A stretch of 64,000 nucleotides of DNA from Porphyrobacter sp. AAP60 (GTDB lineage: Bacteria; Pseudomonadota; Alphaproteobacteria; Sphingomonadales; Sphingomonadaceae). Location: the NCBI RefSeq assembly GCF_001296025.1, contig NZ_LJHV01000023.1, positions 186,001 to 250,000 on the forward strand. Reading direction: 5' to 3'. Below are positions 17,588-38,986 of this stretch, piece after piece (position 1 is the first letter of the stretch; the number at the start of each line of letters is the position of its first letter). The position numbers were made by a program, and so were the translations under genes. The notes beneath the pieces are model-generated. The model made no database searches and had not been told where the DNA came from. It was given only the letters and a program-made list of their open reading frames with translations.

Positions 17588-18124
17588 TCAGATCTCGATG
17601 CGCTCCGCTAGGACAAGAGCATCCTCCACGTCGACCCCGAGATATCGGACTGTGTTCTCGATCTTGGAGTGGCCGGGCAAAATTTGGACCGCTCGCAGAT
17701 TTCCGGTTGTTCGGTAGATCATGGCCGCCTTGGTGCGCTGCATGGAGTGGGTGCCGTAGTATTCCCGCCGCAACCCGACCGCAGTGACCCATTCATCGAC
17801 GAGGCGAGCATACTGCCGCGTGCTCATTGGTTGGCCGGAACGGATCCTGCTTGGGAACACGAAATCATCGATGGTGCCACCCCGCCGCACCAGCCATGTT
17901 GCGAGGCTCGAGCGGGTGTCCGCCGTAACTTCGAAATGCACGGGTCGTCCGGTCTTGCGCTGAATGATCATCGCGCGGTCGCGGAGACGCTCCTCGCGAT
18001 CAAGGAAGAACCGGATCGCCCAAATTTGCTTTTGGGCGAGCGGCCGCTTGGTGCCGACGGTTCTGCCAGCATTCCACGAAACCCGGTTCTGCATGGCCGG
18101 GTCGAGGTGTGAGTAGGTCATCAT
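17588..18124 (-). pseudogene. Tyrosine recombinase/integrase, catalytically defective remnant
   Basis: The open frame from the ATG at 18124 (preceded by GGAGAAAG) has the C-terminal catalytic half of a phage-type integrase: STRQYARLVDEWVTAVGLRR, GTHSMQRTKAAMIY, LPGHSKIENTVRYLGVDVEDAL. The nucleophile Tyr in TVRYLG is present. Two key losses are visible. The H-x-x-R box reads HSMQ, so the second catalytic Arg is Gln. Also, the segment that normally follows LRDRA and carries the first catalytic Arg (about 30 residues in relatives I know) is missing in frame, LRDRA running straight into MIIQRKTGRPV. The reading frame is open, but activity is unlikely. Confidence 0.8.
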
Positions 18125-18312
18125 CTTTCTCCATGGCCTTGATTGGCCAAGAGGAAAGAACGGGCAACGACCCGGCCACATCGCCTTAGCGCTGCAAAGG
18201 CAGCGTGATAAAGGGCTCTGGTGCCTGAGGCTCGCACATGCAAAAGGGCAGCTTTGGGGATCCCGATGCGCGCCCGCTTATGACCAAAGATGGGTGGAAA
18301 TCGGACGAAAGT

Positions 18313-18648
18313 TTACCAGCCCTCGCCCGACCTCACAAAGTCTCCAAGCTCTGACCGCCAGTTTTCACCTGTTGCGTGACGGAGCCGTTTACGAAGTTGG
18401 GTTTCTACCTCCTGCGGATCGAAGCGCAGGACGATCAGCTTTCGACCACTCCAAAGGCTCGAATGCTTCTCGACTTCTTTTATAAGCCAAGCGACAGAGC
18501 ACACATCAAAGTAGTAGTCCGAGAAGTCTTCACTGCCCACTGAGCCTATAAGTGCCCGGACATGAATGCAGAACTCGGCTGTCGTCGGAATCACGTCAGA
18601 GAGAGGGATGCCATCGTCCGTGGTAATAGCTCGTAGCTCTGCTTGCAT
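18313..18648 (-). CDS. Imm8-like immunity protein, orphan
   Basis: 111 residues from the internal ATG at 18648 (MQAELRAITTDDGIPLSDVIP); upstream frame is Arg/Cys-rich and looks non-coding. The pattern of an early acidic-residue, Pro-flanked segment, FCIHVRALIGSVGSEDFSDYYFDVC, a short AWL helix, then SGRKLIVLRFD and a C-terminal helix resembles the Imm8 family of polymorphic-toxin immunity proteins. No toxin gene is adjacent, so it is an orphan or a relic. The family call is from memory of the pattern and is moderate. Confidence 0.6.
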   Translation of the reverse strand: MQAELRAITTDDGIPLSDVIPTTAEFCIHVRALIGSVGSEDFSDYYFDVCSVAWLIKEVEKHSSLWSGRKLIVLRFDPQEVETQLRKRLRHATGENWRSELGDFVRSGEGW

Positions 18649-18970
18649 CGCGGCAAGGTAGCTCAACCGCGAATGTCTGCAATGGGGTCGCTTCCCGAAC
18701 GGCAGCAATTTTTTGCGAGCGAGGCAAAGCCGCCGCCGTGCAGCTTTCGAGGGGCAGAGCGCGGAAAGTACGCTAAGCAACGCTAAGCATGAGCAAGGCA
18801 CGGACATTGCGACGCGGGCATCCCAATTCGTGGCCGGAGCCGGATGCTCACTTGACGAACTTCACCTCATCTCAAATGTCAGGTGGCAGCTTTCCCCTGG
18901 CCTGATCGCCTGTCAATGCTGGCAGCACCAATGACCGCAACGAGCGCAGACACGTTGGCTACAGCCTCGA
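18649..18970. other. Gene-free gap with possible toxin remnant
   Basis: No convincing gene is present on either strand. On the minus strand, just after the orphan antitoxin stop, a frame reads NVSALVAVIGA, faintly like the start of a PIN-toxin (DASALLA...), so this may be a decayed toxin partner. A short tandem repeat lies at 18770-18789. Confidence 0.4.
18770..18789. repeat. Tandem duplication of a 10-bp unit
   Basis: ACGCTAAGCA occurs twice with no spacer. It is in non-coding debris and probably a slippage or junction duplication. Confidence 0.8.
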
Positions 18971-19213
18971 TTACTCCCCGCTATCCGCCCTCCTGTTCGC
19001 CAAAAAATCATCGACCGACATGCCCGGCAGATCGGCATATTTGGCAAAGGTGGCTTTCACCTTGTCGAGGACCTGCTCCAAGGAGCGAAGCGTTACCTCC
19101 TCGTCGCCTACCTCCAGAATCAATGTTCCCCCCTTTTCAAGACCAAGCTGTTTGCGGATGGCAGCCGGGAGAACCAAGCGGCCATTCTCCACCACTTTGA
19201 CCTTGATGCCCAT
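18971..19213 (-). CDS. AbrB/MazE-type antitoxin without an adjacent toxin
   Basis: 80 residues from the ATG at 19213, which has GGAG eight bases upstream; a GTG further out (19222) overlaps that ribosome site. The N-terminal swapped-hairpin DNA-binding fold reads VVENGRLVLPAAIRKQLGLEKGGTLILEV. The C-terminal tail ends ADLPGMSVDDFLANRRADSGE, the type that wraps a PIN toxin. It resembles the antitoxin at 19723-19971 in layout. The place downstream where a toxin should be is gene-free. Confidence 0.8.
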   Translation of the reverse strand: MGIKVKVVENGRLVLPAAIRKQLGLEKGGTLILEVGDEEVTLRSLEQVLDKVKATFAKYADLPGMSVDDFLANRRADSGE

Positions 19214-19340
19214 AAATCTCACTCCAAAGCCTTTGGTGCATAATGCGTTCGAAAGCCGACCATATTTTTCGAAGGAGGGCGTTTGGGGACCAGCAACACC
19301 TGATCAGGAAGCTGGTAAAGGAAACGTTCGAATTTCGAAC

Positions 19341-19730
19341 TTAGCGAACCATCTCAATCGATAAGCCTATATCGAGGTCGGCCCAAGCTTGGTCTGCAGT
19401 GACAGCAACCGCGTTGCGGCTTGCCGCCAGCGCAAGGCAGTATCGATCGCCAAGAGAAAGGCCCTTCCCACGGGTTTCAGCGCGCAGCAGCCCTGCCCTC
19501 ATGGCCAATTCACGGTTGGCCGGCACGACCTCGACATCCAGCTGCTCCATGATCTCGACAATCTGCTCAGCCGGTGTGCCGCGATCGACGAGCTTCGAAA
19601 CCACCTCGGAATAGTTCACCGAACACAGGAGCGCGCCGCCCATCCTTTCGGCCACGACATCTGCGCCCGGCTCGTCGAAGAACGCTGCCAACACAGCTGA
19701 CGCATCGAGGACATAGACTGGCTTAGTCAC
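19341..19730 (-). CDS. vapC: VapC-type PIN-domain toxin
   Basis: 129 residues from a GTG at 19730, which overlaps the antitoxin's end. PIN-domain acidic residues are in place: VLDASAVLA (first Asp), the NYSEVVSKL helix (Glu), and LSLGDRYCLALA (Asp), then VTADQAWADL (Asp). This is the Mg-dependent RNase layout of VapC. It is paired with the AbrB-type antitoxin just upstream, and translational coupling gives the normal antitoxin-first order. Confidence 0.88.
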   Translation of the reverse strand: MTKPVYVLDASAVLAAFFDEPGADVVAERMGGALLCSVNYSEVVSKLVDRGTPAEQIVEIMEQLDVEVVPANRELAMRAGLLRAETRGKGLSLGDRYCLALAASRNAVAVTADQAWADLDIGLSIEMVR

Positions 19731-19971
19731 GTGCGGCCTCAGCACGGCGATCAGCAATCAGTTCATCAGCGACGGAGCCTGATTCCGGCGCATACGGACG
19801 AAGCATCGTCTGAATGCGCTTGAGAACGTCGCGACGCGGCCGAACATGCAGTTCGCCATCGACGACCTGCATGATCACCTGATCACCATCGGCCAGTCCA
19901 AGTTCGCGGCGGACGTCAGCCGGGAGCTGCAACCGTCCGCCACTGACGAGGCGCCCTTTGTGCATGTGCAT
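19723..19971 (-). CDS. vapB: VapB-type antitoxin, AbrB/MazE fold
   Basis: 82 residues from the ATG at 19971 (MHMHKGRLVSGGRLQLPADVRRELGLADGDQVIMQV), preceded by AAAGGA. The DNA-binding half is followed by a tail ending SVADELIADRRAEAARD that should fill the PIN toxin's active site. It shares the tail pattern (acidic-D-[DE]-x-L/F-x-A-x-R-R) with the orphan antitoxin 500 bp away, which suggests the two arose from related modules. Confidence 0.85.
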   Translation of the reverse strand: MHMHKGRLVSGGRLQLPADVRRELGLADGDQVIMQVVDGELHVRPRRDVLKRIQTMLRPYAPESGSVADELIADRRAEAARD

Positions 19972-20101
19972 TGTATTATCCTTTGGGATGCTACAGAATG
20001 ATTTATGCAATACAGATGTTCGACCGTTTCGACAAGATCATCGTGCGGACGAAAGGGATCGCTCAACGGACACTTTTTGAGGCAACGACAAGAACCGGAG
20101 G

Positions 20102-20791: not shown

Positions 20792-21967
20792 ATGCGGGAA
20801 TTTATGGGAAGCAGGCGGGGGATAGCGGTCCTTGGCCTTGCGATCGGTACGATTTCAGGCTGGGTTGCGCATGCCAACTGGCCTGTCACACCGGACGATG
20901 CGAAGTCCGATCAAAGCGCTACTGCCCAGATCGAACAATTCCAATGTCCGCGCGGGTTGACGAAGATTGTCGTCATGCACGGACAGGAAGATAACTTTGC
21001 TGCCGGTGCGGCGGAGCCTGCTGCCATCAGGCCGGCGCTTCTTCGGTTCGAACAATTTCTGCAATTCTCGGAGGACCGCCACGGCATGTTCTCGTTCCGT
21101 GATTACGACGAGCCGGGCACAGACAAATTCCTGATCGACCATTTCGAACTGCCACGAGGGGTGGTTTCCGGACAGATTTTAACCCGCCTTCGCGAATTTC
21201 CGGGCTCGAAAACAGACTCGGTATCGGTTGGAAATTTGGACCCGACTGCCGCGCCGGCGGCCTTTCGCGGCGAAATCATGTATGGAATCCCTGCGCTTCG
21301 CCAATTCCCAGCAGATGGGACAGGCTTGATCAAGGCCGATTTCAAAGACCTGCCACCCAAACCCAGCAAGATGAAAGGCGCGCCAACGTTTATCGAGTAC
21401 CTCAATACGCGCAGTCGTCCCGATGCGGTCGATCTGAAAATCCAGGATGATACGGCCGTCGATTTTTTTGCCTTTCTGCTGTGTCAGGAACCATCGGAGC
21501 CCAAGGGCACCAGCCTGTCTGAGGTCGATGGAAATATTTCCGAGATCGGAATGTCCTATCTGAGCTGTATTGAAGACCTTACTCAACCTAGCTGCAATCC
21601 ATATTCCGGAGACAGGCTCTGCAGTTTGCAGACCCCAATTGCCTGTTACCGAGACGGCGAACGTGACATTCCCAAGGAATTAATGAACGAAAACAAATAC
21701 TTTGCACCAGATGATGCTTTCGTCGGTGGTGAAGTCCGCATGTCTCGCCCGGTTCGCGCAGATGGCCTGCCAACACTGGATAGCGCAAACGGGTTCTGTG
21801 CCGCCGAATTCGGAAAGGGTTGGCGCGTCCTTTCGTATCACGAGGCCGGTGGATCGGGAGTTCTATCATATAGCAAAATCCAGCCCCGCAACTTCGGATT
21901 GGTCCACACCGGCGGCCATCCCTACGCCAATTGCTGGGACCGCCCGGCCAGCGTAATCCGGCCATGA
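20792..21967 (+). CDS. Exported Cys-rich protein of unknown function
   Basis: 391 residues (or 387 from the in-frame ATG at 20804). The N-terminus has a hydrophobic export segment (GIAVLGLAIGTISGWVAHA|N). No domain is recognised with certainty. Cys residues cluster in the C-terminal half: LSCIEDLTQPSC, GDRLCSLQTPIACYRDGE, NGFCAAEFGKGWRVLSYHEAGG, and a final HPYANCWDRP. The tail from GEVRMSRPV to NCW looks like a compact disulfide-bonded extracellular module. Its stop overlaps the start of a response regulator (ATGA), an unusual pairing that suggests it is part of, or a sensor/target for, that signalling system. Confidence 0.75.
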   Translation: MREFMGSRRGIAVLGLAIGTISGWVAHANWPVTPDDAKSDQSATAQIEQFQCPRGLTKIVVMHGQEDNFAAGAAEPAAIRPALLRFEQFLQFSEDRHGMFSFRDYDEPGTDKFLIDHFELPRGVVSGQILTRLREFPGSKTDSVSVGNLDPTAAPAAFRGEIMYGIPALRQFPADGTGLIKADFKDLPPKPSKMKGAPTFIEYLNTRSRPDAVDLKIQDDTAVDFFAFLLCQEPSEPKGTSLSEVDGNISEIGMSYLSCIEDLTQPSCNPYSGDRLCSLQTPIACYRDGERDIPKELMNENKYFAPDDAFVGGEVRMSRPVRADGLPTLDSANGFCAAEFGKGWRVLSYHEAGGSGVLSYSKIQPRNFGLVHTGGHPYANCWDRPASVIRP

Positions 21968-22617
21968 CCACAATCTCTGTAGGGGTGGTCGAAGACGATC
22001 CTGAAATGCGCGCTTATCTGGTGCAGATGATTGACGAGGCTGAAGACCTGGCACTCGCCTTTGCCTGCGGCACATATGCCGAAGCCGTAAATAGCCTGGC
22101 GACCCATTCAGATGTCTGCCTGGTCGATATCCGGCTCCCCGACGGCAATGGTATCGATTTCATTCGCAAATTGCGGGAAAGCGGCGACAGCAAATCCTTG
22201 ATCCTGACAGTTCTTGGGGATCGGGCGAGTGTCCTGCTGGCCTTTGAAGTCGGGGCAAACGGATATCTGCTGAAAGATACGCCCTCTGATCAGATTTGCC
22301 GCGATATCAGGGCTCTGGTTGCAGGCGGCAACCCTATCAGCCCGCAGGCAGCATTTCATGTCATTCAGATGATGGGCAAAAAGTCCGGTCACGATGCAGC
22401 TGTCAGTCAAACGATCGACCACGATCTCACCCCCCGTGAACTGGATGTCCTGACCATGTTTTCCCGCGGACTTTCCTACAAGGAAGCTGCGGCTGCACTG
22501 GGAATGTCAATCAATACGGTTAGCGGCCACGTGAAATCGATCTATTCAAAGATGAGTGTGCATTCGCGCAATGAAGCGATCTTCGAAGCTGTTCAGAACG
22601 GTTGGCTCGAACTTTAA
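21964..22617 (+). CDS. LuxR/NarL-family response regulator
   Basis: 217 residues from the ATG at 21964 (MTTISVGVVEDDPEMR). Receiver domain: acidic E9-D10-D11, phospho-acceptor Asp at about 54 in CLVDIRLPDG, and the conserved Lys in LLKDTPSD. The C-terminal LuxR HTH is LTPRELDVLTMFSRGLSYKE, then SINTVSGHVKSIYSKM. Its partner is almost certainly the convergent histidine kinase, whose last codons overlap its own by 4 bp. It is translationally coupled to the exported protein upstream. The likely target is the block 24423-34030, by proximity. Confidence 0.92.
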   Translation: MTTISVGVVEDDPEMRAYLVQMIDEAEDLALAFACGTYAEAVNSLATHSDVCLVDIRLPDGNGIDFIRKLRESGDSKSLILTVLGDRASVLLAFEVGANGYLLKDTPSDQICRDIRALVAGGNPISPQAAFHVIQMMGKKSGHDAAVSQTIDHDLTPRELDVLTMFSRGLSYKEAAAALGMSINTVSGHVKSIYSKMSVHSRNEAIFEAVQNGWLEL

Positions 22618-24266
22618 TTTGTTGGGGTTGTGGGCAGATAAAGCCGCACAATTGTGCCGTGTTCGCCGGTGTCCCATTTTATTTCAGCACCAAGCTGCGC
22701 GGCACGGGTTCGCATGTTTTGCAACCCCTTGCCCACCACATTCTGGGTCATGTCAAAACCCTTGCCATTGTCGCTGATCGTGATTTCCAGCGCTCTGATA
22801 TCGTGGGCCGGATGGACCGAGACTTCTAGCCGGTCGGCTTGTGAATGGCGCACACTGTTTGAAACCGCTTCCTGCATTATCCGGTATAGGCTGAGAATCT
22901 GGCGGGCGCCGAGCGAATAGGGGCCCAGCTCTTCTGCCTGATTCCATTCAAACGAGATATTGGCCGTCTCCAATTGTTGGCGAGAGCGGGTATTGAATAC
23001 GGCCAATGCACCTTCAAGATCGCTGCCGACCTGGTCCATTGCATCGACCACCAGCCTGAGGTCGGCCAGACCGCGCTGAAGCTCATATTCGACATCGGTC
23101 ATCTCCAGCATTCCGCTGCGGGCCCGCAGCAGGAGCGATAACAGCTGGCCACCAATGCCATCGTGAATGTCACGAACGAAACGTTGGCGTTCCTGCAGGA
23201 CGGCCTTCTCGCTGATCTGGAGGTGGAGCGCGGTTTCCTGTTCCATGATGATCGTTTCCTGCTGTTTCACACGATTTTGTGTTTCCCGAAACGACCGGAA
23301 AAATTGACGGATATCGGCAAGCAGCAGGCACGGCATGCCAATCGCCAAGAATAGCGCGAGGCACGCCGCAACATACAACGCCATTGGCAAACTTGACTCA
23401 GCAATACCGCCCGCAAACCCGGCGAGGATGATCGCCATGGGAGCAGAGATGCCTACCAATCCCAGACCAATGCAGATTACACCCAAGGTGCCCGGCAACT
23501 TGCGCAGCGAAAAGACGAAACAACACCCTGCAAGCAAAACGAGAACAATCGCGAGAGAAGCTGGTTTGAAGGCACCCATGTGAAAGTTTGCCAGGGCCGG
23601 TATCAGCGCAGGCAGTAGCACGCTGGCCGCGATGGCAATTCCTGAGCCCGACGCAAGACGATGCGCGCCCAGCAGAAGGCCCGCAAGCCCGGCGATCAGG
23701 CCTATCCAGCCCGCGATCTGAAGTAGGCTTGCCAGTCTGGTTCGCCGCAATTCGAGGTGGACAACGCTGCTTGACCCGACTTCGCCATAAGCCAGATAAA
23801 CCCCGCCCAGACCGATGCCCCCGGGTGCGCCATCCTGAAGGATGTCAATCCGGTTGCCCTCAGCTTGCAGGGCCTTCCGATTCAGTGAAGCCAGCAGCGG
23901 TCCGGATGATGTTTCCGAGCTGGTGACCGGAACGCCGTTGAGCGACAATCTGGCAGCCCCGCCCAGCCGCGGTACGTAAATCGCTGCGGGCCAACCAGCT
24001 TCGGTATGATCGTACAACTTGAAGTGGAATTGCGCGCTCGCCCCGGCCGGCCATCTGGCCTGCTTGTGCAGAGGAAAGGTTGCGCTGCTCGCCACCACCC
24101 GGCGAACCTGCGCATTCCGGCCAGGATCAACGATCACGATGCTACTGTCAGGCACCTGTTGAAGCCCGGGAAGATCCTGTCTTGCCAGCAGCGCCAACGG
24201 CAAGGCGATGCCTGCGAAAAGCGCAATCGCCAGTAGCCAGTGAACGTATCGGCGGCCGACCCTCAC
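22614..24266 (-). CDS. Membrane sensor histidine kinase, 7TMR-DISM-like, NarX/HisKA_3 type
   Basis: 550 residues from a GTG at 24266. Layout: one signal-anchor (about 8-28); a periplasmic beta domain (about 35-180, with FHFKLYDHTEAGWPAAIYVPRL); about seven hydrophobic spans (about 182-335); a coiled linker (RETQNRVKQQETIIMEQE); the dimerisation/phospho-acceptor box RFVRDIHDGIGGQLLSLL (His at about 362); then an ATPase domain with N-box EAVSNSVRHSQ and G-boxes DNGKGFD and GKGLQNM. The periplasmic domain plus 7TM pattern suggests it senses an extracellular ligand, possibly carbohydrate-like, though the ligand is unknown. Convergent with the response regulator. Confidence 0.92.
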   Translation of the reverse strand: MRVGRRYVHWLLAIALFAGIALPLALLARQDLPGLQQVPDSSIVIVDPGRNAQVRRVVASSATFPLHKQARWPAGASAQFHFKLYDHTEAGWPAAIYVPRLGGAARLSLNGVPVTSSETSSGPLLASLNRKALQAEGNRIDILQDGAPGGIGLGGVYLAYGEVGSSSVVHLELRRTRLASLLQIAGWIGLIAGLAGLLLGAHRLASGSGIAIAASVLLPALIPALANFHMGAFKPASLAIVLVLLAGCCFVFSLRKLPGTLGVICIGLGLVGISAPMAIILAGFAGGIAESSLPMALYVAACLALFLAIGMPCLLLADIRQFFRSFRETQNRVKQQETIIMEQETALHLQISEKAVLQERQRFVRDIHDGIGGQLLSLLLRARSGMLEMTDVEYELQRGLADLRLVVDAMDQVGSDLEGALAVFNTRSRQQLETANISFEWNQAEELGPYSLGARQILSLYRIMQEAVSNSVRHSQADRLEVSVHPAHDIRALEITISDNGKGFDMTQNVVGKGLQNMRTRAAQLGAEIKWDTGEHGTIVRLYLPTTPTN

Positions 24267-24422
24267 ATTATTTTGCCAAGGCCACGCGCACGCACTTCAC
24301 CTCGTTAACTGACCCCCTCTTTAAACCGCAGATGCCTGCTGCCGGTCGACCCCCATAATCATGGGATGCGGCAAACAGTATCCTGAACGAGAGTCTGCGG
24401 AGCCGATATTTGGAACCAATTC
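24267..24422. promoter_or_regulatory. Divergent promoter region of kinase and exported-protein genes
   Basis: A gap of 156 bp between the divergent kinase gene and the small exported-protein gene. It contains the short palindrome CCCAT-AATC-ATGGG (24352-24365), a possible binding site for the local LuxR-type regulator. This is inference. Confidence 0.35.
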
Positions 24423-24755
24423 ATGCGAAAAACAATGGCGGTGGCTGCATTCATGTTGATCGGTATCAGCCATCAGGCTGCCGCGATAACCGTCATCGGT
24501 TCCAACCCAGTTCATTTCGCCAATCATCCGGGCAGCTTCAGCCCCGTGTCTGAAGTGAGCGCAGTCATCGGGCCGATCCGAGGTACCGACGATGGCTTCA
24601 TTGTTCTCGATGACAGCGATTTCCTTGGCGTGCCCGATGGCGAAGACCGTCTGGAAGGATCGCGTGCCGCAGTCAGTCTTGCAAGCGCAAGACTTCTTGA
24701 TGGGCCTGCCGCGGCGGTGCCCGGTTTGCGTGCCGAAACGCGCATCGATTTTTGA
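24423..24755 (+). CDS. Small exported protein of unknown function
   Basis: 110 residues with a clean signal peptide (MRKTMAVAAFMLIGISHQAAA|I). The mature 89 residues lack Cys and have a repeated V-x-[ASG]-V-I-G and acidic turn pattern (VSEVSAVIGPIRGTDDGFIVLDDSDFLG). No family recognised. It is 30 bp upstream of the S8 protease gene in the same direction, so it is probably the first gene of that operon; a propeptide-like inhibitor or cargo role cannot be judged. Confidence 0.65.
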   Translation: MRKTMAVAAFMLIGISHQAAAITVIGSNPVHFANHPGSFSPVSEVSAVIGPIRGTDDGFIVLDDSDFLGVPDGEDRLEGSRAAVSLASARLLDGPAAAVPGLRAETRIDF

Positions 24756-24785
24756 CATTTGAAGCAAAGGGATACCGGCAAGTTT

Positions 24786-27071
24786 ATGACCATGACCAAC
24801 GCAAAATCGGCCCTGTTCCAGACGGTAAACGTGGCCAGCGTAACAGCGATTGCTGCGATGATGGTGGCAGGTTCACAGGTCGGCGCGGCGGATTCCCAAA
24901 TCACAGATGAGCCACAAAGCGCCAGACAGTCTGACATAAAGTTCGCCAATGGTCGCCAGCGGCAGCAATCACTTCAGCGCCCTTCGCCCGAAGCCCGAAT
25001 GCCTCGGACGCAAACCACTGCGCAGCGCAGGGCCTCTGCTGCAATAGTGGCCGCTGGCGCGCATTTGATCGTGCTTCCGACCAGGAAATTGGGGCGCGAG
25101 GTACGCCCAGATGTCGCGGCAGCGCGCGCACAAGCGCTGAAGACCGGCAGGGCCTTGCTTGAAACTGTAAATGCCGATGCCTCTGTGATCAGTACCATCA
25201 AAGTGACCACTGGCGCCTTGGATGTGATCTACGTCGCGGGTTTGGATGCGCAGCAAGTGTCAGCCTTGCAGCGCGACCCGCGGGTCGCTTCCGTGGACGC
25301 GGTCGTTGAATTTGCAGTCGACGGGATTGATACAAATACGCAAAATTGGGGTGCCGACAGGATCGATCAGGTCAATCTGCCGCTCGATACCACCCATGAA
25401 TATTCGGATGCTGCAGACGTCGATGTCTACATCCTTGATAGCGGCGTTGACGCTGCACATCAGGAATTCGGCGGCCGTGTTATCGAGGCAGTCAACTTCA
25501 CAGGCGAAGCGGCACAGACCTGCGACAACCACGGCACCTATTCAGCTTCATTCGCGGCAGGATCAACCCGGGGTATCGCCCGCAATGCCCCGATCCATGA
25601 TGTCAAGGTAGCCACCTGCACCGGAGGCGGGACCAACTTCGATTTGATCGCCGGGATCAACCATGTGGTGAATACACGCACCGGGCCAGCGGTTATCAAT
25701 ATCAGCCTGTCCTTCAATGCTTCGGTTGCGAACGTAAACAACGCGGTCGTGAATGCTGTCAACGCGGGTGTGGCTGTGGTCACCTCCTCTGGCAACGATT
25801 CTGGCCTCGCGTGCATTCGCTCGCCCAATATGGTGTCGGAAATCCTGACTGTGGGGGCGACCCGCGCCAATGACTCGCGGCCTGCATTTTCCAATCGCGG
25901 CTGGTGTGTCGACCTTCATGCACCTGGCGAACTCGTTAATGGTGCGCAGGTCGGCGGCGGGTATGGCACTGTCAGCGGTACGTCGGAATCCGCCCCCGCT
26001 GTTGCAGGAATTGTTGCAGCGATCTGGTCGGAAAATCCGGGCATGACAGCGGCTCAGGCGATGCAGGCAACAATAGATGCGGCCACCCCTGATATTCTGA
26101 CAAACATTCCCTCCGGCACGCCGAACCGTCTGGCACATTACCGACCGGGGAGCGGGACGAGTGCCGGTAACGCCCCGCCAATCGCCTTTCCCAAAGTGAA
26201 CTGGTCTTACGTTTTCAGTGGCCGGCCCGGTGTCACACTGGATGCAAACCAATCGAGCGATCCCGATGGCAATCTGCCACTGACATATCAATGGACCCAG
26301 ACGTTGGGCCCGCCGGTGGTACTGTCAAACCCTAACAGCCCAACGCCAACCTTCACCGCGCCGGTCGTTACGAGCAACCAGAACCTCAATTTCGATCTGG
26401 TTGTAACTGATGCTCTTGGCCTGCAGTCTGCCCAGCAAGCACTGGTCGCAGTGGTTGTGACGCCAGATGCCTGCACTCCCTACAATGAACAGCGATTGCT
26501 GGCAGAGTTTCCGATACTGACTGGTGGGCCAAATTCGTCTTCGACTGTTCGCATCAATCAGGCCAAGGTTGAAGCAACCCTGACTCAATGGCTTGCGACC
26601 ACACAAGCCTCCAATCCCGTGGTGAGCGGAGCCATACTGACGGCAACGCTGGCGGATTTGGGAAATGGTACGCTGCCGGGCAACTTGCCGGGGTCGGCGA
26701 TACCGGGCGCTGCCCTTCATTCGGCCTCGCTTACGCAAAACGGTTTCGTAATTGGCAATCAATCAGGTCCCGCGGCCAGTTTCTGGGATGGCACGCCGAT
26801 TGCGATGGACCGGTGGTACCGGCTCAGGACCAATTTGCGCCCGCTCAACAACGCCGGTGGCATGTCCAATGACTGCACCGATGCATCGATCGTCTTTCGT
26901 TTGCCCAAAAGCAGCGGGCCCAGGCCACCGCGGGTCACTGTCCGGCCAGTAGATATCTGGGACGGAAAAAGCGGCACGACCCGCTCAGTCCCGATCCGGA
27001 CATTTACACTTCCAGCCAACAACACAGGTGCGGTCGCAAAAGATGTGAATGTGACGCAGCGGCCACAATGA
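24786..27071 (+). CDS. Exported subtilisin-like serine protease (S8, proteinase K type) with PKD-like C-terminal region
   Basis: 761 residues from the ATG at 24786 (MTMTNAKSALF...), with an export signal ending near GAADS. A propeptide with the inhibitor-I9 pattern occupies about 90-185 (HLIVLPTRK...VIYVAGLDAQQVSALQRDPRVASVD). The catalytic triad is visible: D218 in VYILDSGVD, H249 in CDNHGTYSASFAAG, S400 in SGTSESAPAVAG; the oxyanion Asn is in SSGNDSG (about 337). After the catalytic domain comes a PKD/Ig-like unit (DPDGNLPLTYQWTQTLGPPV), then about 190 residues of unknown fold. It probably cleaves or matures the co-encoded exported proteins, though this is inference. Its stop overlaps the next gene. 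Confidence 0.93.
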   Translation: MTMTNAKSALFQTVNVASVTAIAAMMVAGSQVGAADSQITDEPQSARQSDIKFANGRQRQQSLQRPSPEARMPRTQTTAQRRASAAIVAAGAHLIVLPTRKLGREVRPDVAAARAQALKTGRALLETVNADASVISTIKVTTGALDVIYVAGLDAQQVSALQRDPRVASVDAVVEFAVDGIDTNTQNWGADRIDQVNLPLDTTHEYSDAADVDVYILDSGVDAAHQEFGGRVIEAVNFTGEAAQTCDNHGTYSASFAAGSTRGIARNAPIHDVKVATCTGGGTNFDLIAGINHVVNTRTGPAVINISLSFNASVANVNNAVVNAVNAGVAVVTSSGNDSGLACIRSPNMVSEILTVGATRANDSRPAFSNRGWCVDLHAPGELVNGAQVGGGYGTVSGTSESAPAVAGIVAAIWSENPGMTAAQAMQATIDAATPDILTNIPSGTPNRLAHYRPGSGTSAGNAPPIAFPKVNWSYVFSGRPGVTLDANQSSDPDGNLPLTYQWTQTLGPPVVLSNPNSPTPTFTAPVVTSNQNLNFDLVVTDALGLQSAQQALVAVVVTPDACTPYNEQRLLAEFPILTGGPNSSSTVRINQAKVEATLTQWLATTQASNPVVSGAILTATLADLGNGTLPGNLPGSAIPGAALHSASLTQNGFVIGNQSGPAASFWDGTPIAMDRWYRLRTNLRPLNNAGGMSNDCTDASIVFRLPKSSGPRPPRVTVRPVDIWDGKSGTTRSVPIRTFTLPANNTGAVAKDVNVTQRPQ

Positions 27072-28702
27072 CCATGGCCTGCCTCAACATCGCGCACCTG
27101 TCGCGACCTACGCCCTTTACCCTGATCAAGAGAACCCGGTTGATGATTTACCGCTTCAATTGCGCCCTTAAGCAGTTCGGCATTGTTAGCGTTGCCTTGA
27201 TGCCCGCCACTGCGATGGCGCAGATACCGCCCGATAACCAGATGGTGCGCAACAATCCTGACATTGTCGTCTCCGCTGGCACTTATAGCCCGGCGCTTCC
27301 GGTCGTTAATGTCTCGATTTATGCGGTCATTAATGCCGGCCAGGCATTCCCGCCGTTTTCAGAGGAATATCTTGAAATCAGCGCCGATAATACGGCGCCA
27401 GCCAATATCGACATTGCCCAATATTGTGCGCGTAGCGGGGCGATGGGGCGCGCGCTGGAGTGCCAGATACCGTTCGAGCTGTCTGCGACGGACGCGGCCA
27501 ATCCATCCACGCAAATTGGTGCACGCCTGCTCGCGCGAAAGACCACCCCTGTATGGCAGGGCTATATCGTCGGGCGCAAACTCACCTCAAGGCAGGATGG
27601 TCAGGGCGGCGCTGCCGGAACTGGTGCCAATAGTGGCGGTAGCGGAGCAACCAGTGCAGGAGGCCCCTGCTGGACCGAAACGCAGCCATTGATGCCGACC
27701 ACGACGCAAAACGGTTCGTTCGTGTTTATCATTCAGCCCGGCGACCTATGCGGTGGGACATTCTACATCGATCCGCCCGTTGCCGTTGGTTATGATTTTT
27801 CCGTGTCGGGCGGCAGCATTACCAAAATCACCATGCCCACGGCGCAAACCGTGCCCGATCCCGATGGCTACCAACTGCTGTTTCCCGGCCTCTCGGTCCA
27901 GCCAGTCAATCTCATGCCAGGGCAGGATCATAGCCCGGCCTCTGCGCAAACCGAGTTCAAATTGCGCGGCATCGATCCCGCGCTTGCGCTAGACCCATCC
28001 GATCAGACCGCGTTTTCTGTGGGGCTTGCGATAACGCCTCTCCAGGGGCCGATCATGATCACGCAAACCCCTGTTACCGCACCGTCGCCACCGCCCCCTC
28101 CAATTAATGGGCTTGGTGGTGATACCATCACGTTGCTCCAGCAGAACAACGCCAACTACCCCGCGACGGCAATAGTGACGCCGGCCGTGGAGTTTCAAAA
28201 CTACGGCACCTTTCCCCTGTCTGCCAACACCCTGCCGCCGCGCTGGAATATCGACGTAGACTCCGCGCAAATCCGCATCGAATTCGTTCATCCCGGCGGA
28301 ATGGCCTCATACGGTCCTGGCTTTGTATTCAATTTCAAAGATCTTGACCCGAAAATCCCCGGCTGCACCGGCATGCCGATCATCGCAGCCGGAATAACAA
28401 CCTCCAGCAGAAACGATGCGCCCTTCACCATCACTGGCACTCAGTTCCGCGCGCATGAAGTCGACATTCCGCTGGGTCCGCCAACCAGCGAACCTGGCAC
28501 GACATATGATTGGGCCGTGGGTGACTGGGTCGAGACCAAGTTGGTGTACGCCTGCGCCCCGCTGCCACCGCCATCAGGCGCAAACGTGGCCACATCGGCT
28601 GCCTCTGACGGACGAAAGTCTGATCGCGCGGTTCCCGTCCGAAAAACTCGCAAGAAGACAGCACCGGCAGCTCCAAGCAGGCGCAAGCGGGCACAATTTT
28701 AA
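27068..28702 (+). CDS. Large exported protein of unknown function with basic tail
   Basis: 544 residues from the ATG overlapping the protease stop; an internal ATG at 27143 (MIYRFNCALKQFGIV) gives a better signal peptide, cut at ATAMA|Q. The mature part is beta-rich and has a Gly/Ser-rich linker (GGAAGTGANSGGSGATSAGG), a Pro stretch (APSPPPPPING), and few Cys. The last 30 residues are very basic (RKSDRAVPVRKTRKKTAPA, then RRKRAQF). Such a tail could bind polyanionic surface polymers or nucleic acid, or be a sorting element. No family recognised. Same operon as the protease. Confidence 0.75.
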   Translation: MTMACLNIAHLSRPTPFTLIKRTRLMIYRFNCALKQFGIVSVALMPATAMAQIPPDNQMVRNNPDIVVSAGTYSPALPVVNVSIYAVINAGQAFPPFSEEYLEISADNTAPANIDIAQYCARSGAMGRALECQIPFELSATDAANPSTQIGARLLARKTTPVWQGYIVGRKLTSRQDGQGGAAGTGANSGGSGATSAGGPCWTETQPLMPTTTQNGSFVFIIQPGDLCGGTFYIDPPVAVGYDFSVSGGSITKITMPTAQTVPDPDGYQLLFPGLSVQPVNLMPGQDHSPASAQTEFKLRGIDPALALDPSDQTAFSVGLAITPLQGPIMITQTPVTAPSPPPPPINGLGGDTITLLQQNNANYPATAIVTPAVEFQNYGTFPLSANTLPPRWNIDVDSAQIRIEFVHPGGMASYGPGFVFNFKDLDPKIPGCTGMPIIAAGITTSSRNDAPFTITGTQFRAHEVDIPLGPPTSEPGTTYDWAVGDWVETKLVYACAPLPPPSGANVATSAASDGRKSDRAVPVRKTRKKTAPAAPSRRKRAQF

Positions 28703-28740
28703 AAGTTAACCTGAAAAAGACTTCGTCAAGGATTTTGGCT

Positions 28741-31700
28741 ATGCGTACTGCAGACAAGGCAATTCGGTTCATCGCGGCACTCTTCGGCCGGTTCACCGAA
28801 CGTCAGGCGGGTTTGCTCACATTAATCTGCATGGCCGGATTAATTGCAGTCACTGCCACCGCGACATGGGCGAACATCGATGGAACCCGCCCTGTCGCGC
28901 AATTTGCCTTGTCGAAATCGCTTTGTGTGGGAGATCCTGCGACAGATCCCGATGCGATCAATTGTCCGCTTGCCTCGGTCGTCCCAGCAAATGCACCGGT
29001 CTTCTACATCTTTCGTATCACCAATCCCCTTGGGCAGCCGCAGCAACAGGTAACGCTGACGGATCCCGTTCCAACAGCCTTTCAGCCCACCTCAGGGCTG
29101 ATATGCAGGCTTCCCGACGGGGCTGGTGTGCCAGTCCAGCCATCGCAGGGCGCAAACGGGCTTGGGTCTATAACGCTGCCCGTGGGGGAAACGGTCATAT
29201 GTTTCCTGCCTGGCCGGTTTACGGCCGCCGGTCAGTTCAAGAACACTGTCAGTGCGGAAAACCAGTTTGGTTTCAGCATCGCAGGAGACGTCAATACTGC
29301 CGTGCAGCCGACCACCCCTATCGGTGTCGATCTGGCTGTGACCAAAACGGCGCTCACGCCGTCGCTTGATGTCAGCAATGGCCCCGGCATTCTGGAATAC
29401 ACCATCACGGTGAAAAACAATGGCAGCGGCCCTGCCGATGTTGGCAGCTACTTTCAGCTGCATGATACGATGTCGCTTCCACCGGGGAGCGTAGCCTTCC
29501 GTGCCGAACTGATCAGCGCGACGTGTTCTGCCACCGGAGGCAGCGATTGCCTCGACCTGGCAGGGCCAACATCTCAGGGCAACATTCTGGTCGGCACGAT
29601 GGGCGCAAAGCACCTGTTCAGCTGGGGCTTTGCCAATGGCCAAGGCATAATTGCCGACGGCGGCATTTTGACGATCAAGGTCAAAATCAGTGTGGAAAAG
29701 CTGTTTGGTCTGAGCTGCTACAAACTGCCCGGTGCCGATGGCATCCGCAACACCGCCTTTTTTACACTCGCCAATAACAACTCGGCTTTCACCGAAGCCA
29801 ATCCGGCAAACAACACCGCGACAGCCGATGCAAAACTTCTGACCGGCGCGACCACCCAAGATGAAGATTGCGGCGCCGGCCATCTCAAGGTGACCAAACA
29901 GGAGATAAAGCCAGGCGGCGGCAAGGCAGCCTGGGGCAGCACCGTCGTGTATCGCATTACTATCAGGAACCAGTCTCTTCCGCAGCAGCCCATCACGATT
30001 GCAGCCGGGGATCTGCAAGACTGGGTGCAGCAGGGTATCAATACTCCGCCTTTCACCCGCAGCCATGTCGCGACAAATTGCGTGTCGTCCACAGCACCGG
30101 GCCTTTGCGCCCAGATCAACGGACAATTGGGCCCGTCACCATCCTACACCTACGGCTTTTACGGGGAGTCCAATCTTGCCTGGAAGTCAGCGCCGGCTGG
30201 CTCTTTTACCCTGCAACACGGGCAGGATGTGGTTATCGATACGGCCTTCAGCTACGAAGATCCTGACTGCGAAACCGTGCCAAATGCACCGCAAAAGCCG
30301 ATCAACAACACAGCTGTCGTGAATTATATGGCAACCGAATATGGTGCGCCCTCGGCATCCGCGCCGCAGCAGTCTTTCCGGCAAGCCGCGTCAGCCCGCA
30401 CGCTGATGGAAGACCAACCGCCCTGCAACTTCAAAGTGACGAAAAAGCGGGTGCCTGACAAGAAGATCAAGTCCAACTTCATCCATTTCGGCAAGCCATT
30501 CACCTATGTGGTAAGCTTCGAAAACAACGAACCTGAACGTAGCGTCGGGACGGTGATGGATGTCATGCGGATCAATCGCAATGATTACACCAGCGGCTTG
30601 CCGTTTCAGGCCACGTGGTCCTGCAGCAACACCGGCAGCGTGACCGGATACGCGCCAAATGGCATGGTCAATGGCATCGTTCGCCACACCAGCACTCCGG
30701 TGCAAGGCAGCTCCGCAGTGGACTTCCGCGCGGTAGGTAATGAAGCAATCAAGTTTGCGCAGGGCAGCAAGCTGACCTGTACTGTAACGGTTGTTCTGAA
30801 AAAGCCGGCAAATAGTGACCCTTATTGCCTGAACGACGATGTTCGGCTGGAAAACCTGGCGCTGATGGACGTCACTGATCCGCTGAACACCAATATCAAC
30901 TGGCCGCCTTCGGGCAGCTACAACCCCGCCGCTTTCAGCAATCCTGCACCGCAGGATCGCAATTGGGCGATGGCCGGCGTGCGCCTTCCCCGCTGTATCG
31001 ATGCGCAAGTCAACAAGGCTGCAAGCGTGGACGGACTGCCGGCCTACTCGGCGGCGTGGACGTTCCAGAACGGCCCGCAAATCCTTTATTCGGTCAAGAT
31101 CGACAACCTTACGAAAGGTGCTCTCAACTCGCTTGGCACAGGCTTTTCGCCCTTCCACGGCGTGTTGGTGACTGACACGCTGGATCCCCCTTATCAGGGA
31201 CAGGCAGGGAATGTTGCACAACAGGCCTGCTTGCCGGCAGGGTTCTGTCAGCCGAACGCTAACGCAGCCAATTACCTTGGGATTGCCAGTATCCCGATCA
31301 ACGGAAACGGCATCTGGTCTTATGCCTTCCCCGGTAATGGCACGGCGTCGCTGCAACCCAATACCACGGTCCGCAATTGCGTGTCTCTCAGCCCCTCGGG
31401 AGACATGGACCCAGCCAATGGATACTTCTATACCAAGCGTCCTTCGCCGTTGTCGGAAGCTTGCACCGAAGTTCCCGTGATCCCGACGACGAGCATCACG
31501 GTGACCAAACAGATCGACGACCAGACTGGCGCTGGCGTGACGCAAGGCGGCCCCTTCGACGTCGAAGTCCGATGCACACCCTATGCGTTGTTCGGCACAA
31601 CCGGCAATTTTTCACTCAACAGCGGCGCCAGCCACACTGTTCAAAATGTGCCAGTTTCATCGAGCTGCACCATCCAAGAAAAAACCCTGCCGCCGGTACC

Positions 31701-32820
31701 TGCTGCCGCAACCGCCGCTTGCCAGACAAAAGACCCTTTTGCGGTGGCTGAATGGGGTGAACCTTCGCTGCAGCCCGGCAGCTTGCCCGCGCCGCTGAAC
31801 GCCGCTGGTAACGCAGTTCTGTTGAAGAACACCCTCGTCTGCAAGGCCGGGCAAGCCGGAACGATCCGCATCAACAAGTCAATCAGATCCTGGGAGCCAA
31901 AATTCGGGCCGACTTCGGTGACCTTTGCGATTGCCTGCACGCCTGCCGCCAGCCCTTCGGCAATCACGATTGCTATGGCGACGGGCACAGTAACCGGGAC
32001 CACCCAGGCACCGGTTGGTGCACAATGTACCATTACCGAAACCATGCCATCGTTCCCGGCTGATCTCACGACCTACTGCAACAACATCGAACCGCTGGGA
32101 ACCATGGCACCCGAATGGGATCCACCAGCTTACGGTCCGGGCAATAGTTTCACCGTCCAGGCTGGCATGAATGATATCGATGTGCGGAACATGTGGTCCT
32201 GCAAGCCCAAAGTGCTGACGCCAGATCCGGGTACCGTTTCGATAACCAAATTGTTTTCAGGCGACCAGGCGCTGCAAATTATCGCCAGGTCGGTTCCGGT
32301 CACCGTTACGGCCAATTGCACTCCGGCTGCGGCTCAGCCGACATTGAACCTCAACATCCCGGGCGGTCAGACCACTGGCACAATCACGGTCCCCGGTCAG
32401 GCGAATTGCCAGATTTCCGAAACACTGGCCAACGTGCCTGCCGCAGCCAAAGCATACTGCACCAAACAAGGCAGGTTCATGCGAGCGCGCTGGGCCGCGC
32501 CGGTGTTTGTTCCGGCGCAGTCTGTCACAGTTGACGCTGGCAGCACTGCCGGTGTCAGAGTGGTCAACCGATTGGAATGCTACAGGCCCACTGTCCAGGA
32601 ACAGGGCGAAATTATTCGCGTTCCCAATCTCTCAGGCGGAGGTGCGACCCCAATTCCGACCCCCACGCCCGGTACTGGCGGGGCAGGCAATCAAACCTCC
32701 GATCCGGTCGGCGGAATCCTCATTCCAGGTAAGAAGGCAGAGCCGAAAATGCTTCCGTTGATCAAGCGTAGCCTAGGAGGAATATCGCCCAAAAAAGAAG
32801 AACAGAAGAAGCCAGAATGA
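28741..32820 (+). CDS. Giant exported surface protein with DUF11- and DUF5979-like modules
   Basis: 1359 residues from the ATG at 28741, which has AAGGA upstream. The N-terminus has a hydrophobic export segment (LLTLICMAGLIAVTATATWA). DUF11-like beta modules follow: IGVDLAVTKTALTPSLDVSN (about 195), LKVTKQEIKPGGGKAAWG (about 380) and FKVTKKRVPDKKIKSNF (about 565). From about 917 there are three successive DUF5979-like units starting SITVTKQIDD, TIRINKSIRS and SITKLFSGDQ, each with the C-T and C-x-I-x-E pattern. The C-terminus is Pro/Thr/Gly-rich, then a Lys-rich polar tail. It lacks a beta-barrel or LPXTG motif, so how it is held at the surface is unclear. Such repeats usually build adhesin or matrix stalks. 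Confidence 0.85.
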   Translation: MRTADKAIRFIAALFGRFTERQAGLLTLICMAGLIAVTATATWANIDGTRPVAQFALSKSLCVGDPATDPDAINCPLASVVPANAPVFYIFRITNPLGQPQQQVTLTDPVPTAFQPTSGLICRLPDGAGVPVQPSQGANGLGSITLPVGETVICFLPGRFTAAGQFKNTVSAENQFGFSIAGDVNTAVQPTTPIGVDLAVTKTALTPSLDVSNGPGILEYTITVKNNGSGPADVGSYFQLHDTMSLPPGSVAFRAELISATCSATGGSDCLDLAGPTSQGNILVGTMGAKHLFSWGFANGQGIIADGGILTIKVKISVEKLFGLSCYKLPGADGIRNTAFFTLANNNSAFTEANPANNTATADAKLLTGATTQDEDCGAGHLKVTKQEIKPGGGKAAWGSTVVYRITIRNQSLPQQPITIAAGDLQDWVQQGINTPPFTRSHVATNCVSSTAPGLCAQINGQLGPSPSYTYGFYGESNLAWKSAPAGSFTLQHGQDVVIDTAFSYEDPDCETVPNAPQKPINNTAVVNYMATEYGAPSASAPQQSFRQAASARTLMEDQPPCNFKVTKKRVPDKKIKSNFIHFGKPFTYVVSFENNEPERSVGTVMDVMRINRNDYTSGLPFQATWSCSNTGSVTGYAPNGMVNGIVRHTSTPVQGSSAVDFRAVGNEAIKFAQGSKLTCTVTVVLKKPANSDPYCLNDDVRLENLALMDVTDPLNTNINWPPSGSYNPAAFSNPAPQDRNWAMAGVRLPRCIDAQVNKAASVDGLPAYSAAWTFQNGPQILYSVKIDNLTKGALNSLGTGFSPFHGVLVTDTLDPPYQGQAGNVAQQACLPAGFCQPNANAANYLGIASIPINGNGIWSYAFPGNGTASLQPNTTVRNCVSLSPSGDMDPANGYFYTKRPSPLSEACTEVPVIPTTSITVTKQIDDQTGAGVTQGGPFDVEVRCTPYALFGTTGNFSLNSGASHTVQNVPVSSSCTIQEKTLPPVPAAATAACQTKDPFAVAEWGEPSLQPGSLPAPLNAAGNAVLLKNTLVCKAGQAGTIRINKSIRSWEPKFGPTSVTFAIACTPAASPSAITIAMATGTVTGTTQAPVGAQCTITETMPSFPADLTTYCNNIEPLGTMAPEWDPPAYGPGNSFTVQAGMNDIDVRNMWSCKPKVLTPDPGTVSITKLFSGDQALQIIARSVPVTVTANCTPAAAQPTLNLNIPGGQTTGTITVPGQANCQISETLANVPAAAKAYCTKQGRFMRARWAAPVFVPAQSVTVDAGSTAGVRVVNRLECYRPTVQEQGEIIRVPNLSGGGATPIPTPTPGTGGAGNQTSDPVGGILIPGKKAEPKMLPLIKRSLGGISPKKEEQKKPE

Positions 32821-32956
32821 GCCGGATCTAGCGATTATCACATCACAGTTTTGCCTCCCTTCCGATAAATTTCTGCCCTTCAGGTTCTGACCCCAGAGTG
32901 GACGTTGATTGTTGATCATCAGTAACTTAGTCGAGCCATAATCGGAGAGACAAATG

Positions 32957-34030
32957 ATGGCTCGCCTTCTGATAGCTGTAGCGGTCTTGCTGCTGACCCC
33001 CTTCAAAGCACACGCTGATGTGCTGGTGACAGTTTCCTATCGTGAGACAGCAGACCTGTTTTCCACGATGGACAACATGAGTGACTGGCTCCCGGGCAAC
33101 ACTATTCCGGCCTATCGCGAGGAATGGGAGGCACGGTTCGGATGGACCGAGGCGGATCAGCAATGGGTTGGTCGCTATAAGGAATACCGCCGCCGGACGA
33201 TTTTAAAGGGGCAAAGGCCTCGCAATCCGAGATCATCCCCGGATGGCATCTTCGCGTCGCGCGATCAATTGACTGCAGCTTCTGACCCCCTCGCGGCGCA
33301 CTTTCTTGAACACGCAACAATTGAGGCAGCACTGGCCACCCTAGAAAGGGCTGCAAGCGTAGATGATGCCAAGATGTTAAGGGGCTTCTACCGGCACTTC
33401 AAACCACAGTGGCGCTTGCTGCTCGCGGACAGTTCGGCGCTTCAGGAACGTGCTTCGAAACTTCACGCGAGGTTCAAGTCGTTAGCAGCGGCAGATTTCA
33501 TCGCGTCGGTCGCGAAATTCTATCGAAGCGATCTGGATGGCGAATTCACTGTGCTCTTCACACGCCGACCGCCCGGCGATGTGGCATCAGCCGAACCTAT
33601 CGCTGGCTCATTTATTCTGCTTCAAAGTCCGCCGACCGAGACCGACCCATCCTACTGGGACACCATAGTATTTCACGAGCTGGTTCATTTCATCTCATCG
33701 AGGCAGCCAATAGCGCAAAAGCAAGCACTTACCACCCGATTTTTTGCTCGTTGCCCGGCCCCGCCGAGCATCAATTGGGGATGGTTTGTGGAGGAACCTT
33801 TGGCAGTCGCGTGGGGACAAGCTGCCTATTCATCCAAGGTTCTGGGATCGCCGCTTGACCCCAAGGAGAACTGGTATGCTGATCCTTGGGTCAACCTCGT
33901 GTCCCGCGCATTAGCACCAACCATAATCGATCAGTATGACCGCGGGTCAGATATTGAAGACCTCGTAGATCAAGCGGCTGACCGATGCATTGACCTGATG
34001 TCTGTCGTCGGCTCGCAGCAAAAGAGATGA
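32957..34030 (+). CDS. Exported putative zinc metallopeptidase (HExxH)
   Basis: 357 residues from the ATG at 32957 (a second ATG is 3 bp upstream). Signal peptide MARLLIAVAVLLLTPFKAHA|D. The zinc motif HELVH is at 240-244 and a Glu pair in WFVEEPLAVAWGQ at 279-280, about 35 residues later, is the candidate third ligand, giving a gluzincin-like layout. The family was not identified. It lies 136 bp after the giant protein gene in the same direction; with the S8 protease it makes two exported peptidases in one block. Confidence 0.75.
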   Translation: MARLLIAVAVLLLTPFKAHADVLVTVSYRETADLFSTMDNMSDWLPGNTIPAYREEWEARFGWTEADQQWVGRYKEYRRRTILKGQRPRNPRSSPDGIFASRDQLTAASDPLAAHFLEHATIEAALATLERAASVDDAKMLRGFYRHFKPQWRLLLADSSALQERASKLHARFKSLAAADFIASVAKFYRSDLDGEFTVLFTRRPPGDVASAEPIAGSFILLQSPPTETDPSYWDTIVFHELVHFISSRQPIAQKQALTTRFFARCPAPPSINWGWFVEEPLAVAWGQAAYSSKVLGSPLDPKENWYADPWVNLVSRALAPTIIDQYDRGSDIEDLVDQAADRCIDLMSVVGSQQKR

Positions 34031-38038: not shown

Positions 38039-38986
38039 ATGAATACGCTGGCAGTCATTCTCGAAGCACCGGAGCGTCTCGCTCTGCGTGCACTTGAGAT
38101 GAAGCCGGTGGATGCATCGGATGTCGTCATCGAAGTCGCTTTCAGCGGAATCAGCACCGGAACCGAAAAACTGTTGTGGAGCGGGCGGATGCCGCCCTTC
38201 CCCGGCCTCGGCTATCCGCTGGTGCCCGGTTACGAATCGGTGGGCCGGATCATCGATGCCGGTCGTGAAGCGCATGGCCGCATTGGTGACTGGGTGTTTG
38301 TGCCCGGCGCCAACTGCTACACAGATGCCCGCGGATTGTTCGGCGGCACGGCCAAGAAGGTCATCGTGCCTTCTGCCCGCGCCATTCCGATCCCCGAACA
38401 CCTTGGCGAATCCGGCGTGCTGTGCGCGCTGGCGGCCACGGCGCTCCACGCGATCAAGGGCGGCTTTGACTGGCGTGAAGCACTGCCCGATCTGATTATC
38501 GGCCACGGCGTGCTGGGCCGCCTGCTTGCGCGGCTCACGCTGGCACTGGGCGGCGCTGCGCCGACCGTGTGGGAAACCAACCCTGCCCGCCGCCTTGGCG
38601 CAGAAGGTTACAACGTGATCGACCCGGCCTCTGACGAGCGCCGCGATTACCGTGCCATTTACGATGCCAGCGGCGATGCCGGGCTGATCGATGATTTGAT
38701 CATGCGCCTCGCCAAGGGCGGCGAGATCGTGCTGGCGGGCTTTTATTCCGAGCGGGTGAGCTTTGCCTTCCCCGCTGCCTTCATGCGCGAAGCCCATTTC
38801 CGCGTGGCCGCCGAATGGCAGCCCGGCGATCTGGCTGAAACCCGCGCGCTGATTGAATGCGGGCGATTGGGCCTTTCCGGCCTGATCACCAACCGGCGTC
38901 CGGCCGGTGAAGCGACGGAGGCCTACCCCCAGGCCTTCACTGACCCTGACTGTCTCAAGATGGTTCTCGATTGGAGCGAATGCTGA
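38039..38986 (+). CDS. bchC: Bacteriochlorophyllide a dehydrogenase
   Basis: 315 residues from the ATG at 38039, after GGGGAGA. Medium-chain alcohol-dehydrogenase fold: [22 protein letters not shown] near the start, VPGYESVG, and a nucleotide-binding part with [18 protein letters not shown]. It oxidises the 3-hydroxyethyl group to acetyl in the last steps before bacteriochlorophyllide a. First gene of bchCXYZ-pufBALM; the stop and the bchX start share one base. Confidence 0.95.

Follow-up and report, generated by a model that had tools for sequence, protein, structure and literature searches.

Fibrillar adhesins of bacteria, Gram-negatives included, have stalks in which DUF11 (CLIPPER) and DUF7507 act as isopeptide-bond domains, and DUF5979 is tabulated as CnaB-like with Lys, Glu and Asn (excerpts of PMC12617251). 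Exported accessory proteins that work with a two-component kinase/regulator pair are also known, e.g., QseG with QseE/QseF and HbpS with SenS-SenR (excerpts of PMC12691602, PMC6075780 and PMC4991794). The locus considered here occupies positions 20792-34030 of a 64,000-nucleotide stretch of Porphyrobacter sp. AAP60 (contig NZ_LJHV01000023.1, positions 186,001 to 250,000; this whole stretch is called the window). It resembles both kinds of system: an exported protein is encoded with a response regulator and a sensor histidine kinase, and a few genes further lies the gene of a long exported protein with DUF11 and CnaB-like DUF5979 domains. A sensor trio beside an adhesin is not mentioned in the excerpts of PMC12617251, and the open-access papers on DUF11 and fibrillar adhesins, as far as excerpted, do not address the timing of giant DUF11 adhesin building in Gram-negatives. 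An earlier description made from the letters alone (the sequence-only reading) could match this gene set to no described system. Indeed, no description of the locus was found in the open-access literature, which does not imply absence from print elsewhere; DUF11 stalks as such are of an already known kind (excerpts of PMC12617251). Exported-partner sensing and DUF11 adhesins being known, the combination of this trio with an adhesin would be a new variant.

The favored reading, in which belief and doubt are evenly balanced, is that a rare, self-contained three-gene sensing module (the trio) stands beside a probable operon, the largest gene of which encodes a giant fibrillar adhesin, and controls it. 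Judged from sequence comparison, the stable core of the block is the 391-residue exported protein, the regulator and the convergent kinase. The order and orientation of the three genes are kept in all four other genomes found to have a full-length homologue of the 391-residue protein, and in one of them, from another genus, the trio again adjoins a homologue of the giant protein. The other neighbors of the trio vary between genomes; by this measure, the block is neither one conserved system nor a random collection. A compact sensor trio beside an adhesin in two genera makes the control of adhesin building directly testable by gene deletion.

All eight open reading frames (ORFs) that the sequence-only reading had placed in window 20792-34030 were found again at the same positions; one start is revised below. 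The features are:

20792-21967, forward strand: exported protein of 391 residues with 8 cysteines, an N-terminal module (about residues 42-238) and a Cys-rich C-terminal part; no named family
21964-22617, forward strand: NarL/LuxR-type response regulator (Response_reg 63.9 bits, GerE 54.6 bits)
22614-24266, reverse strand: convergent sensor histidine kinase with HATPase_c, a HisKA_3-like part with H368, an N-terminal transmembrane segment, an extracytoplasmic stretch and several transmembrane segments
24351-24366, no strand assigned: tentative candidate regulator site CCCCATA-AT-CATGGGA, 56 bp ahead of the gene of the 110-residue protein
24423-24755, forward strand: small exported protein of 110 residues with weak N-terminal likeness to a 587-residue protein of genome G092
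24759-27071, forward strand: exported S8 subtilase with a PKD domain; ATG 24786 is a possible alternative start
27143-28702, forward strand, revised start: exported protein of 519 residues (544 earlier), no named family
28741-32820, forward strand: giant exported protein with DUF11 and three DUF5979 stretches, predicted fibrillar-adhesin stalk (Pfam, one homologue)
32954-34030, forward strand: exported 358-residue HExxH protein with EE downstream; its homologues are lone genes

The ATGA overlap at 21964-21967, which had been read as a fusion of the 391-residue gene to a LuxR-type regulator gene, is real, and both Pfam domains of the regulator exceed their cut-offs. The triad claimed for the S8 protease is intact (DSGVD at 227, NHGT at 257, GTSESAP at 407), as is the peptidase motif of the 358-residue protein (HELVH, with a conserved EE downstream), and Pfam finds in the giant the DUF11 domain (30.4 bits) and the DUF5979 domain (69.6 bits, in three stretches) for which it had been named. 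The kinase had been called 7TMR-DISM-like. Hydropathy and the secondary structure of a low-confidence kinase model agree with the general layout: a hydrophobic segment at the N-terminus is followed by an extracytoplasmic stretch and then by further hydrophobic segments ahead of the kinase part. Hydropathy gives five segments after the extracytoplasmic part, where seven transmembrane helices would be expected of this type, and no 7TMR-DISM domain is matched in Pfam at E<=0.1. The length of 544 residues is doubtful: the protein probably has 519, starting at 27143, because the signal peptide begins there and the homologue in genome G037, also of 519 residues, has a matching start. The frame as first given has no segment over the transmembrane threshold. 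With the revised start, the ATGA overlap between this gene and that of the S8 protease is therefore probably not real. At E<=0.1, neither Pfam nor NCBIfam has a model that matches the 391-, 110-, 544- or 358-residue protein.

The four other trio genomes are G558 and G538, from the genus of the window, and G092 and G204, from two other genera of the same family. Identities to the window for the 391-residue protein, the regulator and the kinase are 42, 58 and 42% in G092, 40, 56 and 42% in G204, and 29, 49 and 37% over the aligned parts in G558 (contig CALLIO010000272.1, labelled Altererythrobacter sp.); for the regulator, the four genomes range from 49 to 60%. The G538 contig ends too early for its trio neighbors to be judged. 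Compared with the 113 other genomes of the genus, the block gives DNA matches of at most 155 bases; these short matches were used as leads to protein homologues. A profile of the 391-residue protein finds 3 of 114 genomes in the genus (own, G538 and G558), 4 of 216 in the order and 4 of 387 in the family, these samples overlapping one another. The order count includes G054, which has a lone module, and a spurious match in G024 (E 8e-4, three stops) that was dropped; the family count also includes G054, and full-length proteins are confined there to the own genome, G092 and G204. The plasmid records hold one partial match, to residues 267-351, in Deinococcus taeanensis, and the viral contigs contain no relative of the 391- or the 519-residue protein. 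Beside the G204 trio (L060 14107-19284), there is a 211-residue exported-looking protein, then a 273-residue protein with, by eye, a double-glycine-like leader, and an ABC transporter whose N-terminus looks peptidase-like, also by eye.

All 8 cysteines of the 391-residue protein are aligned in G092, G558, G538 and G204. Its N-terminal hydrophobic stretch is under the transmembrane threshold in the window and in G204, and over it in G092 and G558. The protein is comparable to QseG and HbpS as an exported protein that goes with a kinase/regulator pair; it differs in that its profile has no match among PDB sequences at E<=1, hence no recognizable solved relative, and in that contact with the kinase is only proposed here. 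Among the exported partners of two-component kinases, it could represent a family not yet described. The N-terminal module also occurs in contigs of metagenome-assembled genomes (MAGs) from other phyla: L047 (Campylobacteraceae), L048 (Campylobacterales), L046 (Thermus/Deinococcus group) and L049 (Planctomycetales). The L046 protein joins it to two DUF11 domains (87.6 bits), and in L049 it lies within a protein bearing RTX repeats. In L047 (412-4804), a MASE6/HATPase_c kinase and an OmpR-type regulator (Response_reg/Trans_reg_C) are followed by a protein with two tandem copies of the module, the gaps being 54 and 196 bp. On the short contigs L048, L046 and L049, no kinase/regulator pair was seen by eye. 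That the module meets a two-component system in one of four distant cases and DUF11 in another is suggestive and is not proof.

The regulator consists of a receiver domain with the phospho-acceptor Asp and a GerE output domain; D11, D12, D55, T82 and K104 are invariant in an alignment of five sequences. In the window, G558, G538 and G204, the start of its gene and the stop of the gene upstream share an ATGA. The G092 frame, taken at its longest, begins with TTG and has an overlap of 11 bases. The kinase scores 44.9 bits for HATPase_c (cut-off 26.4) and 19.0 bits for HisKA_3, which is under the 24-bit cut-off; H368, in RDIHDGIGGQL, is invariant in three aligned kinases.

The giant protein starts at ATG 28741, preceded by AAGGA, and has 1359 residues with a hydrophobic N-terminus. 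Its length, export, DUF11 and CnaB-like DUF5979 are what it has in common with the described fibrillar adhesins. Lys/Glu/Asn candidates for isopeptide bonds are present in the three DUF5979 repeats, as found with an imposed pattern only. Homologues exist in 2 of 129 family genomes, the own genome and G092 (E 3e-57, 25% identity over 1089 residues). The G092 protein has 1894 residues from ATG 4023 of locus L055, and its start is 157 bases from that of the kinase gene; the next gene encodes a 587-residue protein in which a PKD domain is combined with an autotransporter barrel. The match is specific, since the giant matches, at E<=0.01, no listed ORF of other DUF11 gene runs of the own genome (L064) and of G092 (L066). 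Because a full-length 391-residue homologue is present in only 2 of the 386 other family genomes, the adjacency of trio and giant in the sole giant-bearing relative is unlikely to be due to chance. A sensor module beside a giant, predicted adhesin is thus supported by one independent case. The runs themselves (L064 4185-14122 and L066 5914-15917) encode DUF11-type proteins of about 1700, 700 and 330-373 residues and are common to the own genome and G092; similar frames occur in many of 24 family genomes. A basic C-terminal tail that seemed to be shared by the giants and the G037 protein was discarded: it concerns three tails only and is lacking, by eye, in the long DUF11 proteins of L064 and L066. 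Plasmid carriage was set aside, since 72,556 plasmid records gave no match to the giant or to the 544-residue protein.

The proposed working is as follows. The 391-residue protein, located in the periplasm or on a membrane, would detect a signal (a surface, a polysaccharide or the state of the envelope) or present it to the extracytoplasmic part of the kinase, which would phosphorylate the regulator. The latter would bind near 24351-24366 and activate the divergent genes starting at 24423. These four co-directional exported genes (24423-32820) are closely spaced and would form the operon, so that the adhesin would be produced only when conditions call for it; exported proteins encoded there may be trimmed by the S8 protease. 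In a more specific version, tentative and somewhat unlikely, the 391-residue family would be a new class of disulphide-rich extracytoplasmic sensory partners, with a gene overlapping that of a NarL-type regulator, that use a secreted/adhesive module (YD...ND...QDDTAVDF), through which the kinase would sense contact or an extracellular ligand and switch on a giant isopeptide-locked adhesin in a Gram-negative that carries photosynthesis genes. If this were true, the pairing of the module with another type of kinase and regulator in the Campylobacteraceae MAG would point to a recurrent sensory module that crosses phyla.

Several observations weigh against such control of an adhesin. The adjacency of trio and giant depends on one relative, G092. 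G204 has the trio without the giant. In G558, the DUF11/DUF7507 protein near the trio is a different one, encoded on the minus strand at a distance of 2.4 kb and behind another gene, and its comparison with the giant gave no match at the cut-off applied. More generally, no homologue of the giant was found in nine further genomes, including G204, G558 and G538, in a search without positive control whose query was the one that had detected G092 earlier. Among the Pfam matches of the giant there is no adhesion, sorting/anchoring or outer-membrane anchor domain, in which it differs from the known DUF11 adhesins. A terminator-like hairpin at the end of the 110-residue gene (24727-24744) makes a single transcript up to the giant uncertain; such hairpins are not above chance frequency in the region. 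A kinase/regulator pair accompanies the module in one of the four loci from other phyla (L047), is of another type there, and the contigs measure 3.7-7.2 kb. Finally, the structure models have low confidence, with a mean predicted local distance difference test (pLDDT) score of 55.1 for the kinase and 50.7 for the 391-residue protein. Of the 1167 Foldseek matches to the latter model at E<=10, none reaches E<=0.001, and no fold is claimed; the best are virus-capsid and other beta proteins.

The candidate regulator site belongs to the same discussion. Of the five intergenic regions that lie between the kinase gene and its neighbor, three contain a CCCC-rich, 7-2-7-like palindrome (window 24351-24366, L055 3950-3965 in G092 and L060 14021-14036 in G204), respectively 56, 57 and 70 bp ahead of the next start. 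It may resemble NarL heptamer sites. Scored as a palindrome in the three chosen regions, it is equalled by none of 100 shuffles. The palindrome was spotted by eye before testing, the three regions were hand-picked, and 6 of 100 shuffles reach its score when symmetry is not imposed. With all five intergenic regions, the motif is not above shuffles, and a scan of the window with up to 3 mismatches finds 2 matches for 1.87 expected by chance. This weak upstream palindrome fits control of the predicted adhesin operon by the regulator, without proving it. Another motif, non-palindromic and upstream of the 391-residue genes, was reached by none of 100 shuffles; it was not used because the five sequences include two close relatives and because its place in G092 apparently lies, by eye, in the end of a coding region.

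The GC content of the block (0.565-0.575, compared to 0.63 on both flanks) bears on another explanation, a minority possibility that deserves serious weight: the trio would be a sensing module that is mobile and has unrelated targets, possibly just the adjoining small exported protein, and its adjacency to the giant in two genomes would reflect hot spots shared by accessory surface genes. The low-GC block indeed adjoins a fragment of the Phage_integrase family and PIN/MazE-type genes, G204 and G558 have no giant homologue, and DUF11 proteins are frequent in the family, occurring in 17 of 24 genomes. Yet the giant and the trio are each rare in the samples and are adjacent in both giant-bearing genomes, and the trio of G092 has the GC content of its surroundings (0.666 vs 0.66). 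It is also conceivable, if doubtful, that the 391-residue protein is an output of the system, a secreted effector or adhesin that shares an mRNA with the regulator, which is compatible with the other explanations. The occurrence of its N-terminal module inside other secreted proteins, one with DUF11 and one with RTX repeats, would agree with an output, as would the module standing alone as a 238-residue ORF in G054 (L054 9292-10008); no regulator or kinase was matched within the 19.9 kb around that lone module, which is not counted as a trio. The full-length protein is nevertheless co-encoded with regulator and kinase in the window and in all four other genomes while the neighbors change, and the module protein stands behind a kinase/regulator pair in L047.

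The sequence-only reading had gone further and proposed a surface system with its own sensor and its own processing enzymes, with linkage in relatives as the test. Linkage holds for the trio, in 4 of 4 genomes, and for the giant beside the trio in G092; none was found for the S8, 544-residue and HExxH proteins. The part with a sensor survives as a reading through G092, with no giant homologue found in G204, G558 and G538 to extend it. The processing enzymes are unsupported, the 544-residue and HExxH proteins having homologues that are lone genes in unrelated neighborhoods. An integrated secretion-and-processing system, in which the S8 protease, the 519-residue protein and the HExxH peptidase would mature the giant, is accordingly regarded as highly improbable. 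The close spacing from 24423 to 32820 would suit it, but the 19.9 kb of L055 in G092 contain trio and giant and neither an S8 catalytic domain nor a 519-residue or HExxH protein, and the 519-residue protein was found in none of the 113 other genomes of the genus.

Pfam assigns Peptidase_S8 and a PKD domain to the S8 protease, which has matches in 159 of 296 order genomes; among the matches listed, each covers one of the two parts, catalytic region or PKD domain, never both. Its linkage is hardly testable by homologue search because the protease domain is generic; around the trios of G092, G204 and G558, no S8 catalytic domain was detected. PADLOC gave subtilase and IetS matches for the S8 protease only and none for the six other proteins submitted, so a defence system was not retained. 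The 544-residue protein has matches in 4 of 298 family genomes. The sole near-full-length relative, in G037 (36% identity), lies amid unrelated genes and not near a trio or a giant; partial matches of 135 and 144 residues in G163 and G284 were not taken as orthologues. The likeness of the 110-residue protein to the autotransporter-like 587-residue protein of G092 amounts to 36% over 78 residues, a large part of them signal peptide, and a match in G570, 22 residues inside what is by eye a flagellar gene, was attributed to chance.

The HExxH protein is found in 1 of 298 family genomes, its own. Two homologues, in G536 and G495 (48 and 42% identity), which are outside this sample, were found via DNA, each in unrelated surroundings. 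Since its homologues are lone genes, this protein is probably not part of the system. The three sequences (window 32954-34030, L036 9682-10758 and L037 9440-10543) form an exported family with the pattern HExxH...EEPLAVAxGQAA. Neither Pfam nor NCBIfam matches the member in the window, and Pfam gives nothing for the one in G536. This is possibly an undescribed metallopeptidase family.

The surroundings of the block are of two kinds. At its left end (17588-20010), the integrase-family fragment is accompanied by an Imm8 immunity-type protein and a PIN-domain gene with a MazE-type partner. Directly to the right (34289-64000), Pfam finds photosynthesis genes, among them a NifH/frxC-family protein (38971-39990) and a protochlorophyllide-reductase-type subunit (54635-56206), together with an amine-oxidase-family protein, probably a carotenoid enzyme, and an O-methyltransferase. 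An intergenic stretch of about 45 bp (32850-32894) resembles stretches on another contig of the own genome (G000:C22:2121-2165), in G496 and in G488, and is perhaps a dispersed repeat.

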